Source of the DNA: Agarivorans albus
GTDB taxonomy: Bacteria; Pseudomonadota; Gammaproteobacteria; Enterobacterales; Celerinatantimonadaceae
Direction: 5' to 3'
Length of the DNA stretch: 64,000 nt
Assembly (NCBI RefSeq): GCF_019670105.1
Contig: NZ_AP023032.1
Span: 2,784,972 to 2,848,971 of the forward strand
Part shown: positions 31,542-36,693 of the stretch, in pieces
Layout: every line of letters begins with the position of its first letter
Position numbering within the stretch: position 1 is the stretch's first letter
Made by a program: the position numbers and the translations under genes
Notes under the pieces: generated by a model
Database searches by the model: none
What the model was told of the DNA's origin: nothing
The model's input: only the letters and a program-made list of their open reading frames with translations

Positions 31542-32276
31542 ATGTATTTAATTATGATTTTTATAGAAAGAGTTTTAGCCTCAGTTGCGTTACTTAGCTT
31601 TAGCGTTCAAGTTCAGGCCACTGTGCAAGTGGAGCAACTGGATTATGACTCACTGCTCATCAATGATTGTTCTCAGTCTGCTGTCACCATCAGCGCTACT
31701 CAGTCATCTGTGATGACTCAGCTTGAGACGCTTTCAGCTGAAGCGCGCTCTACAATTAATGATAGTATCTTGGTGGCTACTCTTCCCTCTTTAAATATCG
31801 ACGCACAGCAACAAAACTATAGAACTTATTCACCTAACAACAAAAAGATAAACTTCAACTCAAGTAAAAGTGCTCACTTCCCCATATCTTACGCTTGGCA
31901 AGAACAAAATTTTGAATGGTTTAGCGCTTATAATTCTAACCAAAGCCAGCTAAAACCGGCCCCCTACTTAGCACTTGCCCGATATCAGGGACAAACATTG
32001 GCACTAGCAAGTATCAGTAGCAATGATAACCAGGAGCTACTTAGCGCTTTACGTGATGACTTCATCGCTCAACGCAGCCCTTTAGTTTTATTTGTTAGAA
32101 CGAACGAGCCGCTAAATAACTCCGCTATCAACGCATTTCACCAGCTGGGCATGCGCCTTCACTTTAAAGATCAACTCATCATCGCAAGCAAAGCTATAGA
32201 TGCCTGTGATAGCGGTAACTGGAGAGATGAAAACGGGCAAAGTATAAATTGGATAAAAATCGACAAGGTGAATTAG
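31542..32276 (+). CDS. Secreted protein of unknown function
   Basis: 244 residues with a signal peptide ending near VQVQA-TVQVEQ. The mature part has no domain I recognise. It is rich in Ser, Asn and Gln in its first half, and the second half reads like a mixed alpha/beta fold (YLALARYQGQTLALASISSNDNQELLSALRDDF). Two cysteines (in NDCSQS and DACDSG) could pair in the periplasm. It is divergent from the chemoreceptor gene by 93 bp. A strong hairpin follows. Confidence 0.65.
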   Translation: MYLIMIFIERVLASVALLSFSVQVQATVQVEQLDYDSLLINDCSQSAVTISATQSSVMTQLETLSAEARSTINDSILVATLPSLNIDAQQQNYRTYSPNNKKINFNSSKSAHFPISYAWQEQNFEWFSAYNSNQSQLKPAPYLALARYQGQTLALASISSNDNQELLSALRDDFIAQRSPLVLFVRTNEPLNNSAINAFHQLGMRLHFKDQLIIASKAIDACDSGNWRDENGQSINWIKIDKVN

Positions 32277-33443: not shown

Positions 33444-34157
33444 ATGAAAAAGCTTTCGATAATTTCATTGTCTCTTGCACTTACCGCTTGTGCGAGCCAA
33501 CAAGCCTCTCAATCTAACGACCAAACTCTGGAACAATTATCAGCGCTTTCGGCTCAGCAGGCTTCAGTGTTAAGCCAATGCGAGTCAATTTCTGAGCAAC
33601 TAGAAGCTCAACAGCAACGTTTTGATCAACTTGAAGATAAAGTGGTGGCAATAGCCCCAGTGCCAGTTGCAACCTCCAAATCAACCCCGCAGAGCTGCAG
33701 CAAGCAAACAAGCTACAAGCTTGGCAACAAAACCGTGTTAGGTGAATCTGAATGGGTAAGTTTAGAAGGGCAAAAAAATGCCTTCCAAGCACGTATTGAT
33801 ACTGGTGCGGCAACATCATCACTTAACGCAACCGACATTGTGAAATTTGAACGAGATGGTAAGAACTGGGTACGCTTTAACATGCGCCACAATACGCTTG
33901 ATAGCGATATTATTGTAGAGCGCCCTGTAGTGCGCACAGCAGAAGTTACTCAATCATCAACCAACAAAGTAGATAAACGCCCAGTTGTTTCGATGTTAGT
34001 TAAGTTAGGTCCAATTTCAGAAAAGACCCAATTTACCCTAACCGACCGCAACCACCTTAGTTACCCAGTGCTACTAGGACGTAGCTTTCTAAAAGATATA
34101 AGTGTGGTAGATATAAGCCAAAAGTTTACCCAAGCGAAGCCGACATTTAAGGATTAA
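33444..34157 (+). CDS. Retropepsin-like (RimK-associated) aspartyl protease, lipoprotein
   Basis: 237 residues. A lipoprotein signal ends in LTAC (Cys16). A Gln-rich coiled coil follows (about 25-70), then a retropepsin-like domain (PF05618 type, often mis-named ATP-dependent zinc protease) with the catalytic motif RIDTGAATSSLNA, Asp119-Thr-Gly-Ala. The C-terminal YPVLLGRSFLKDISVVD is the typical flap and dimer region. Single-motif retropepsins work as dimers. It is the first gene of a three-gene operon with an inactive transglutaminase/TM protein and a RimK-like ligase, with one-base overlaps. I infer a periplasmic or outer-membrane location and a role in cleaving or trimming the ligase-dependent product. 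Confidence 0.85.
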   Translation: MKKLSIISLSLALTACASQQASQSNDQTLEQLSALSAQQASVLSQCESISEQLEAQQQRFDQLEDKVVAIAPVPVATSKSTPQSCSKQTSYKLGNKTVLGESEWVSLEGQKNAFQARIDTGAATSSLNATDIVKFERDGKNWVRFNMRHNTLDSDIIVERPVVRTAEVTQSSTNKVDKRPVVSMLVKLGPISEKTQFTLTDRNHLSYPVLLGRSFLKDISVVDISQKFTQAKPTFKD

Positions 34158-35686
34158 TGCCCATGAGTTCTCGCAACATATTTTACTTTATTGTCACCCT
34201 GTGCATGCTGATAGGAATAAGCATGACACTCTACCGCCATGTTCAATTTGAAGTGCCTTGGTTTCCTGGCGAAAAGCGCCAGATTTGGTCAATCGAAGCC
34301 AAGGTAGAATTTGACGCCAAAGGCGAAAGCGTTGAAGCAGTGCTTGCTTTACCTTTAACCCAACGTGGCTATACACGTATTCATGAATCAACAGCGTCAT
34401 TAGCTTATGGCTTATCTTTTGTAAACGACCAAGATAACCCTCGCGCCATCTGGACTAAGCGCACAGCCGACGGCCATCAAGAGATGTACTATAAAGTAGA
34501 CTTCTTGGTAGACCCTAAAGCGGCAGATATTTATCAGCCGAAGATGCCTGATACACCATTTACCGAATATCCAGAACCCTACTTCACCGCTGCTAATCAC
34601 TTAGCGAAGCAAGCCGAAGAAGTTTCAGCTGATGCCTATAGCTTTACTCGCGAGTTAATTAAAGCTCTGACCGGTGAAACTGCCAGTAAAAGCCAAAATA
34701 CCGGTTTAATTTTAGATTACAAACCTAAAAACCGTTTAGTGGTAGACCTACTAAATAATGCCGATGTGCCTGCACGTATTGTTCGAGGCTTACAGCTAGA
34801 AGATGGCCGCCGCCGTCAAGGCATTACTGAATACATTCAGGTTTTTAAAGACGAAAATGACTGGCAGATTTTTGACTTAGCAACCGGAACTCAAGGCCGG
34901 CCAGACAACACCCTATTGTGGGAATACAATGGCAATAGCTTGCTAGAAGTTGTTGGCGGTAAAGATTCACAAGTGACTTTCTCAATGTTACTGGTTGAGC
35001 AAAGTGCCCAGTCAGCCGTTGCCCCTAAAATCAGCGAAGCTGATTTTCTTAACTTCTCAATTGATAGCTTACCTTTAGAAGAGCAAGCGCTATTTAAAGG
35101 CATTTTGCTTATTCCAATTGGCGTATTAATGGTGGTTTTGCTACGTGTACTTGTTGGCCTTAAAACCTCGGGTACCTTTATGCCAGTGCTAATCGCCATG
35201 GCATTTATGCAAACCTCACTAATGACTGGTTTAATCGGATTCCTACTGGTAGTTGGAACAGGCCTAGTGATTCGTGGCTACCTCTCCCATCTGAATTTGC
35301 TGCTGGTATCGCGAATATCCGCGGTGATTATTACGGTGATCGGTATTATCTCTATCTTCAGCGTAATGAGTTTTAAAGTAGGCTTAACGGAAGGTTTGAA
35401 AATCACCTTCTTCCCAATGATTATTCTTTCCTGGACCATCGAACGGATGTCGGTACTGTGGGAAGAAGAAGGCCCTAAAGAAGTAGTTATGCAGGGTGGC
35501 GGTAGTTTACTAGTAGCCGTTCTCGCTTTCCTAGCGATGAACAACGAATACGTTCGCCACTTAACCTTTAACTTCATGGGCATTCAATTCATTGTACTAG
35601 GTATTATTTTGATTCTTGGTAACTACACTGGATACCGCCTATTAGAACTACGTCGCTTTAAGCCTCTCGCGGATAAGGAGGGCTAA
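34157..35686 (+). CDS. Inactive transglutaminase fused to multi-TM domain
   Basis: 509 residues. An N-terminal TM (about 6-25) is followed by a periplasmic region with an inactive transglutaminase fold (about 30-290) and a hydrophobic C-terminal domain from about 310 with roughly six to seven helices (PF14400/PF14402 layout). The transglutaminase core DLLNNADVPARIVRG...EYIQVFKD..WQIFDLATG keeps the final Asp. The usual His position reads Glu-Tyr, and no Cys is seen at the nucleophile position, so catalysis is unlikely. It overlaps both neighbours by one base (TAATG). The probable role is a membrane receptor or scaffold for a peptide or polyglutamate-like product of the ligase. Confidence 0.87.
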   Translation: MPMSSRNIFYFIVTLCMLIGISMTLYRHVQFEVPWFPGEKRQIWSIEAKVEFDAKGESVEAVLALPLTQRGYTRIHESTASLAYGLSFVNDQDNPRAIWTKRTADGHQEMYYKVDFLVDPKAADIYQPKMPDTPFTEYPEPYFTAANHLAKQAEEVSADAYSFTRELIKALTGETASKSQNTGLILDYKPKNRLVVDLLNNADVPARIVRGLQLEDGRRRQGITEYIQVFKDENDWQIFDLATGTQGRPDNTLLWEYNGNSLLEVVGGKDSQVTFSMLLVEQSAQSAVAPKISEADFLNFSIDSLPLEEQALFKGILLIPIGVLMVVLLRVLVGLKTSGTFMPVLIAMAFMQTSLMTGLIGFLLVVGTGLVIRGYLSHLNLLLVSRISAVIITVIGIISIFSVMSFKVGLTEGLKITFFPMIILSWTIERMSVLWEEEGPKEVVMQGGGSLLVAVLAFLAMNNEYVRHLTFNFMGIQFIVLGIILILGNYTGYRLLELRRFKPLADKEG

Positions 35687-36642
35687 TGCTTAGTCAATTC
35701 ACTAGCCCTTTTAAACTTGCCCGCAAGGGCATCATGGGGATGAACCAACGCAACACTGGCTATATCGCCCGGTACAACCCGCGTAAACTTTATCCACTAG
35801 TCGACAATAAACTTAAAACCAAGATTATTGCTCAGCGAGATGATGTCACCATACCAGCACTTATTGGCGTAGTGCGCACTCAACACGATATTCAATCAAT
35901 CATTCCCTTACTGCACAAACACCCTGGCTTTGTGATAAAGCCAGCTAAAGGCTCTGGTGGTAAAGGTATATTGGTGATTACTAAGCAAGAGTCTGGGGTG
36001 TTTTTTAAACCCAGTGGAGCACCCGCTCATGAAGAAGATGTGAAGCGTCATTGCTCTAACATCTTAGCCGGTTTGTTCTCACTTGGCGGCAGCCCCGATG
36101 TTGCAGTAATTGAAGCACTAATTGAGTTTGACTCATGTTTTGATGGGTTTAGCTTTGAAGGTGTGCCAGATGTTCGAGTAATCGTTTTTCAAGGTTACCC
36201 GGTGATGGCGATGATGCGTCTGTCTACAGCAGCTTCAGACGGTAAGGCTAACCTACACCAAGGCGCTGTAGGTGTTGGTATCGATATCGGTTCTGGGCGA
36301 GCTTTACATGCAGTTCAATTTGATAGGCCGATAGAAAAACACCCTGATACAGACCGACCACTTAAAGAATTAGTGGTTCCTCATTGGCAGCGTTTGCTTG
36401 AACTGGCATCTAGTTGTTATGAGATGTCGGGAATGGGTTATTTAGGTACCGACATGGTACTGGATAAATCGAATGGCCCAATGCTGTTAGAACTTAATGC
36501 CCGACCAGGCCTGGCTATCCAAATAGCCAATGGCGAAGGTATTTTGCCTCGTCTTAAACTTGTAGAAAAGATCATTGCCGAAGGTATTGAACGCAATCCG
36601 CTTGAGCGAGTTGAATTTAGTAAAACTGAATTTTCTAGGTAG
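35686..36642 (+). CDS. RimK-like alpha-L-glutamate ligase family ATP-grasp protein
   Basis: 318 residues with an ATP-grasp fold. The nucleotide-binding lysine is in HPGFVIKPAKGSGGKGILVI, and the metal-binding C-terminal motif is MLLELNARPGLAIQIANGEGI. Members of this group add amino acids (glutamate or similar) to a peptide or metabolite carboxylate. No signal peptide or membrane segment is visible, so it acts in the cytoplasm, while its two operon partners face the periplasm. This three-gene set was noted in comparative genomics of amidoligases (Iyer, Aravind and colleagues, 2009). The substrate is unknown to me. A strong bidirectional terminator follows. Confidence 0.87.
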   Translation: MLSQFTSPFKLARKGIMGMNQRNTGYIARYNPRKLYPLVDNKLKTKIIAQRDDVTIPALIGVVRTQHDIQSIIPLLHKHPGFVIKPAKGSGGKGILVITKQESGVFFKPSGAPAHEEDVKRHCSNILAGLFSLGGSPDVAVIEALIEFDSCFDGFSFEGVPDVRVIVFQGYPVMAMMRLSTAASDGKANLHQGAVGVGIDIGSGRALHAVQFDRPIEKHPDTDRPLKELVVPHWQRLLELASSCYEMSGMGYLGTDMVLDKSNGPMLLELNARPGLAIQIANGEGILPRLKLVEKIIAEGIERNPLERVEFSKTEFSR

Positions 36643-36664: not shown

Positions 36665-36693
36665 AAAAAAGCACCCATAATGGGTGCTTTTTT
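36665..36693. terminator. Bidirectional terminator between ATP-grasp gene and purF
   Basis: GCACCCA (36671-36677) and TGGGTGC (36681-36687) with a TAA loop, flanked by six A and six T residues, lie between converging stops. Confidence 0.93.

Follow-up and report, generated by a model that had tools for sequence, protein, structure and literature searches.

The rloABC operon of Agarivorans albus and a possible exchange of transglutaminase and retropepsin among its relatives

A 64,000-nucleotide stretch of Agarivorans albus DNA (NZ_AP023032.1 of assembly GCF_019670105.1, positions 2,784,972 to 2,848,971 of the forward strand; hereafter the window) contains three consecutive plus-strand open reading frames, at 33444-34157 (237 aa), 34157-35686 (509 aa) and 35686-36642 (318 aa). 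They encode, in this order, a secreted retropepsin, an inactive transglutaminase fold joined to seven transmembrane helices, and an ATP-grasp ligase. The question raised by this locus is what such a trio makes and where the product goes. The initial annotation had presented it as a little-described system, a description that has been overtaken: this is the gene order of rloABC, which was characterized in Pseudomonas aeruginosa, including the cutting of 8 or 10 glutamates by RloA (Lormand et al., mBio, June 2025, PMC12239564). The window locus is an rloABC operon, the ortholog of the P. aeruginosa system, and as such is not new. Our reading, to which we give a probability of about 0.5, is that RloC and RloB together produce a polyglutamate-type chain and send it out to the periplasm, where RloA cuts it. 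As far as the open literature shows, two findings among the relatives are undescribed, a fusion of RloB with RloC and an exchange between transglutaminase and retropepsin. The features on which the argument draws are the following.

33444..34157, plus strand: rloA-like gene for a retropepsin-like aspartic peptidase, a predicted lipoprotein of 237 aa (PF05618, NCBIfam, solved relatives)
33444..33491, plus strand: lipoprotein signal with lipobox LTAC, Cys16 as predicted lipid site and Ala as the next residue (sequence)
33492..33734, plus strand: linker of about 80 residues from the lipid anchor to the protease domain, glutamine-rich and, by eye, probably coiled-coil (sequence)
33798..33809, plus strand: DTGA catalytic motif, residues 119-122 (sequence, alignment)
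33933..34049, plus strand: stretch with Arg164, Arg179 and Arg202, equivalent to R92, R114 and R137 of P. aeruginosa RloA (alignment)
34157..35686 (start possibly 34163), plus strand: rloB-like gene for an N-terminal helix, a triad-less transglutaminase fold (predicted periplasmic) and a seven-helix membrane domain (PF14400, PF14402, NF052267)
34718..34720, plus strand: Tyr188 in place of the transglutaminase Cys (alignment)
35081..35635, plus strand: seven-helix membrane domain (hydropathy, alignment)
35686..36642, plus strand: rloC-like gene for a RimK-like ATP-grasp ligase without the RimK N-terminal domain, 318 aa (PF14397, TIGR02291)
36490..36510, plus strand: ELNARPG motif (sequence; Glu269 and Asn271 in 117 of 117 RloC rows)
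36665..36693, unstranded: terminator hairpin with an A run and a T run at its flanks, between the convergent rloC and purF (folding against shuffles)

Pfam profiles matched PF05618 in the first frame (4.8e-42), PF14400 (3.3e-47) and PF14402 (7.3e-107) in the second, and PF14397 (3.3e-96) in the third; PF14402 is present once in the window genome. RloC passed the alpha-L-glutamate ligase-like model TIGR02291 (4.2e-141; 469.5 bits against a cut-off of 314.2). Window RloA scored below every NCBIfam RloA cut-off (RloA3, 114 of 210 bits; RloA2, 97.8 of 250; RloA, 89.9 of 280) and likewise below that of the RimB model, and RloB fell below the cut-off of NF052267 (8.3e-96; 321.7 bits against 900). 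Because of these scores we name the locus a system ortholog and not a model-named member; the RloA, RloA2 and RloB models, which are of type exception, seem to be narrow ones. Gene order, domain types, a secreted protease, the catalytic Asp and the glutamate-contact residues are all shared with P. aeruginosa RloABC. Apart from the model scores, the difference is that window RloA is a predicted lipoprotein on a long linker.

Published genetics frame our reading. P. aeruginosa RloA cuts 8E and 10E and leaves 6E or fewer uncut. That organism has three redundant secreted RloA proteins, and losing all of them blocks growth in salt-free medium, which sucrose partly relieves; deletion of rloB or rloC fully rescues this growth defect (PMC12239564). 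Since RloB and RloC are thus epistatically upstream of RloA, with RloA outside and RloC inside, the product has to get across the membrane, with RloB as the obvious carrier. A long periplasmic polyanion that draws water and counter-ions would account for both the low-salt harm of losing the cutter and the benefit of sucrose. The system also affects osmotic survival, biofilm and beta-lactam tolerance, and rloABC of V. cholerae ranks among the loci that VxrB upregulates most (PMC12239564). Transposon hits have been reported in PA1766 to PA1768 (PMC7314104); judging from the descriptions and from the appearance of PA1768 in the methods of PMC12239564, these genes would be rloC, rloB and rloA.

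In our model, cytoplasmic RloC, docked on the cytoplasmic face of RloB, would spend ATP on linking glutamate or a comparable acidic amino acid, either into a chain or to an acceptor. The product would then pass through the seven-helix domain of RloB to the periplasm, where the transglutaminase-fold domain would receive it and RloA, here on a lipid anchor and a long linker, would cut it. The chain would have to be kept short; without the cutter, the exported polyanion would damage cells when salt is low. A second and probably older form of the system would have a periplasmic RloB domain with an intact catalytic triad and no secreted RloA, the transglutaminase perhaps being the periplasmic cutter, and in the window lineage an RloB without Cys and His would be accompanied by RloA instead. 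We infer both the identity of the RloBC product and the direction of its export by RloB. The layout of cytoplasmic ligase, membrane protein and envelope protease had been proposed in the initial annotation, and it fits the published genetics as well as the fusion described below.

The three genes were followed in a synteny set of 116 rows (114 distinct loci), composed of the best 80 of 574 confirmed relatives and 36 rows from further genomes; the survey looked for rloA, rloB and rloC only. The window locus appears again as L007 in this set and in the RloC and RloA alignments. We found that rloC lay directly after rloB on the same strand in all 116 rows, as two frames in L102, and that rloA preceded rloB in 106. 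The ten rows without rloA were L104 (at a contig end), L022 (genome G204), L036 and L072 (G183), L037 and L073 (G107), L068, L069, L070 and L071. Among genomes of the group whose RloB lacks the triad, a PF05618 gene stood just upstream of rloB in 58 of 59 (50 of 51 and 8 of 8 in two sets), the triad having been read in 29 of the 59 and the other 30 having been assigned to the group by PF14402 scores; the one exception was G204. The neighborhood survey thus bears out the earlier proposal that the three genes constitute one system.

In two genomes of different genera within one family, RloB and RloC occupy a single frame, of 669 aa in G346 and 820 aa in G379, and in both the RloC match begins 5 residues past the end of the RloB match. 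The 820-residue frame runs from a leading helix through the transglutaminase domain and the membrane domain to the ligase; in G346 the transglutaminase domain starts in another frame, which lies immediately before the fusion. The gene was found only in these two among the 32 genomes of the family. The fusion indicates direct contact between RloB and RloC, and it places the RloB C-terminus in the cytoplasm, in agreement with one plus seven helices. Such helices were read from the hydropathy of window RloB, in which overlapping stretches gave one N-terminal and seven C-terminal helices; the resulting eight replace the six to seven of the initial annotation, and seven agrees with the Pfam name. 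We found no mention of the fusion in the open literature, including the available portions of PMC12239564.

RloC retains the catalytic residues of RimK. K42, K85, D162, R164, R178, N189, L190, H191, D256, E269, N271, P274 and G275 were invariant in 117 of 117 RloC rows and identical in 5 of 5 RimK rows, so that RloC as an active ligase is, on sequence grounds, well founded. The NARPG motif that the initial annotation saw in the ATP-grasp ligase is present, in the form ELNARPG, which we take to be a metal/ATP-site motif of ATP-grasp enzymes. Glutamate is the probable substrate, given the RimK match and what RloA cuts. Compared with RimK, RloC is missing about 90 residues at the N-terminus, and it carries distinctive motifs, N20-R22-N23 (NxRN) and W234 in 117 of 117 rows and HPDT (219-222) in 115 to 117. 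The RloC alignment left out L072, L073 and L102; in the last (L102:4122-5110), from a Vibrio aestivus draft, the division of rloC into two frames may be a sequencing fault. In a ligase tree of 53 RloC rows, chosen from those collected, and 5 RimK rows, the RimK rows formed a separate, fully supported clade. On this result and the missing N-terminal domain we reject an identity of RloC with RimK; since the three genes also co-occur, neither of the refutations that the initial annotation had set for itself applies.

That annotation also took the transglutaminase domain as dead, without Cys and His, and as a recognition module. The first part holds: window RloB has Tyr and Thr at the positions of the catalytic Cys and His, with the Asp kept. 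The relatives point elsewhere on the second. Among 116 distinct aligned RloB rows (L104, which is cut at a contig start, and L072 and L073, which duplicate the genomes of L036 and L037, were left out), 108 lacked Cys and His, six had the Cys-His-Asp triad and two had no transglutaminase domain in frame. The Asp was kept in 27 of the 108 triad-less rows, and in none of them did a Cys lie within six columns of the Cys position. A seventh intact triad, in G286, came from outside the aligned rows. None of the seven triad-intact genomes (G071, G147, G183, G286, G379, G107 and G346) had a secreted RloA. A PF05618 search gave no match in the first five, and in G107 and G346 the sole PF05618 copy has no signal peptide and adjoins or is fused with RimK. 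These assemblies are 88-98% complete and mostly in many contigs, with 9% contamination in G286, so that an individual missing PF05618 match could reflect a gap. The triad-intact relatives suggest that the domain can be an enzyme and that its role may have passed to RloA.

In the ligase tree the triad-less rows formed one clade with moderate support (80/87), and the intact rows fell into two groups; long branches, which drew a program warning, connected one of these groups with the domain-less pair. The sequences are suggestive of one loss of the triad accompanied by the acquisition of RloA, a history that is favored because regain of a lost triad is unlikely. Together, the fusion and the triad-intact relatives sharpen the question of the rlo product, which PMC12239564 leaves open: the ligase should sit at the mouth of the membrane domain, and what RloA cuts may also be acted on by the transglutaminase domain as an enzyme. 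At two triad-intact loci from two families (L068:4294-6189 and L169:3144-5048), a TPR protein of about 630 aa, recognized by eye in L068 and by Pfam in L169, follows rloC.

Several observations weigh against export of a chain by RloB or against the exchange. A His was found within four columns of the His position in 22 of the 108 triad-less rows, so misalignment at this position is possible. On the tree the exchange of triad and RloA counts as one event at most, and the basal RloC fork did not resolve. G204 has a triad-less RloB with no adjoining rloA and two PF05618 genes elsewhere. The RloB frames of G142 and G098 are without the transglutaminase domain and have kept their RloC partner, which makes the domain inessential to the RloB-RloC pair; PF05618 occurs in these two genomes only as RimB-like copies with RimK. 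We found no sequence signature that marks the seven-helix domain as a channel, and comparison of RloB with the polyglutamate exporter family CapC/PgsC by hhalign reached at best E 0.004 and a probability of 8.7%. Deleting rloB or rloC alone also causes defects in P. aeruginosa, though milder ones (PMC12239564). Taken with the vesiculation and slow growth of a Shewanella mutant described below, these defects argue that the RloBC product is not merely harmful. In G142, the transglutaminase-less rloB and rloC share a locus with rimB and rimK, which are located some 1 kb upstream (L070:174-1567).

Three alternatives were weighed. In one, RloC makes no free chain and instead adds glutamates to an envelope precursor, a peptidoglycan component or the cytoplasmic tail of a membrane protein, RloB flips or presents the modified molecule, and RloA removes the tail and resets the target. 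The cell-wall phenotypes, with beta-lactam sensitivity and short, wide cells, speak for such a modification, and the authors of PMC12239564 suggest post-translational polyglutamylation; Pfam, moreover, calls PF14397 sugar-transfer associated. No candidate target emerged from a survey that covered rloA, rloB and rloC and made no systematic search for a further linked gene, and we judge this explanation rather unlikely. RloB could instead be a sensor or regulator whose periplasmic domain reads peptides or the osmotic state and controls the ligase, with the product remaining cytoplasmic and RloA cutting a periplasmic signal. Inactive transglutaminase domains have been proposed as peptide binders in other proteins (PMC3482391), and the RloB-RloC fusion would suit allosteric control equally well. 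However, a cytoplasmic product would be beyond the reach of the secreted RloA, which cuts polyglutamate and whose loss is suppressed by loss of RloB or RloC, and an RloB without the transglutaminase domain still has its ligase partner; a sensor therefore seems improbable to us.

The RimK-like motifs of RloC would also be expected if the cluster were only loosely linked and RloC were a second RimK acting on ribosomal protein S6. This is scarcely credible given the full support that separates the RloC clade from RimK, the presence of both RimK and RloC in G107, G346, G142 and G098, and the fusion of RloC to a membrane protein. Synthesis and export by RloC and RloB with cutting by RloA remains our preferred reading. 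We extend it only tentatively, as possible with the odds somewhat against it, to the proposal that RloBC is a new vectorial polymer machine, in which a ligase bolted to a seven-helix domain makes and exports polyglutamate in one step as a protein-based counterpart of the osmoregulated periplasmic polymers, and in which, during evolution, a retropepsin in trans replaced a transglutaminase in cis as the periplasmic cutter.

Known systems resemble parts of this arrangement. RimB is an endopeptidase for polyglutamate and also stimulates RimK in making poly-alpha-glutamate, so RimBK likewise pairs a retropepsin that cuts polyglutamate with an ATP-grasp glutamate ligase (PMC11957791). In contrast to RloABC, RimBK is cytoplasmic and has no membrane partner, and RloC differs from RimK in its missing N-terminal domain and its NxRN and HPDT motifs. 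The poly-gamma-glutamate synthase PgsBCA/CapBCA would share the proposed logic of a ligase, a membrane protein that exports polyglutamate and a separate hydrolase outside; its ligase fold differs from that of RloC, and homology of the membrane domains is not established. In Shewanella vesiculosa HM13, disruption of hm2192, annotated as an inactive transglutaminase fused to seven helices, gave 1.9-fold more vesicles that were larger and less uniform, and slower growth (PMC12096838). That gene was studied alone, and its orthology with window rloB rests on annotation.

Homology of the RloB membrane domain to CapC/PgsC had been suspected from similar G/P motifs and stays a lead only. The best hhalign comparison was between nine divergent RloB rows and the first CapC domain; its score was 25.5, where 25 shuffles reached no more than 18.7, and its alignment matched different halves of the two domains. 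The other eight comparisons were weaker, at about 0.1 to 4%; the first RloB profile gave about 4% or less and all RloB rows at most 2.3%. A PF14102 (CapC/PgsC) profile run over 299 genomes matched no rloB gene at E 0.1, and sequence searches of RloB and RloC against solved structures returned nothing useful, as did those of CapC. In proteins of about 1080 aa from genomes of family f27 (L074:2987-6226 and L038-L042), two CapC (PF14102) domains in tandem have a long non-membrane part behind them, and in L074 a response-regulator-like gene directly precedes the tandem-CapC gene.

Window RloA has the lipobox and DTGA motif that the initial annotation reported, and 9g59, 9g58 and 2pma are its solved relatives. 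It was called a lipoprotein from its sequence, with a lipobox Cys behind a hydrophobic signal, and the anchor is presumably in the outer membrane by the residue-after-Cys rule (Ala here). A crude pattern count scored a lipid anchor and a long linker in 75 of 107 RloA rows, with 72-131 residues from Cys to Asp in those scored as lipoproteins. The count is probably too low, since several of the 32 missed rows have a plausibly placed Cys; these 32 include the compact Pseudomonas-like rows with plain signal peptides. The catalytic Asp was kept in 107 of 107 aligned rows, with the window's own counted twice. Contact positions were counted from this Asp (taken as 48) on an aligned P. fluorescens chain. 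Of the residues that contact glutamate in P. aeruginosa (PMC12239564), R92 was Arg in 102, R114 in 106 and R137 in 105 of the 107 rows; position 46 is Arg and not Lys in the window, and is one or the other in 105 of 107. At a Moritella locus (L131:573-2613), two successive rloA genes precede rloB.

The window genome encodes four PF05618 proteins: window RloA, proteins of 184 and 647 aa with signal-like N-termini (by eye), and a RimB-like protein of 142 aa without one. With three copies secreted and one cytoplasmic, the tally matches that of P. aeruginosa. The 647-aa protein (G000:C1:3935402-3937342; L003, L004 and L006), encoded outside the window, has three separate PF05618 matches, and PF05618 frames of 632-667 aa occur in at least seven relatives. 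The RimB-like gene (L002) has no RimK within its 1.5 kb flanks; its neighbors, by eye, are an aspartoacylase-type deacylase and a small membrane protein.

The rlo operon is flanked by CmoB upstream and by the convergent purF downstream. Also upstream of the operon, a 244-aa frame at 31542-32276 starts with a signal-like stretch and matched nothing in Pfam or NCBIfam. Both gene junctions read TAATG, as in the one-base overlaps originally described. The second overlap stands; the first would become a short gap if RloB starts at 34163, as it may on the evidence of its alignment, in which Met occurs at window residue 3 in 36 of 49 sequences and residue 1 has no common letter. A consensus promoter and terminator scan of the window did not list the hairpin at 36665-36693, and its number of sites was no higher than in shuffles. 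By folding, the hairpin reached -18 kcal/mol (z -3.9), with none of 200 shuffles as good. It is the strong terminator with which the initial annotation closed the operon, and it could serve both rloC and purF.

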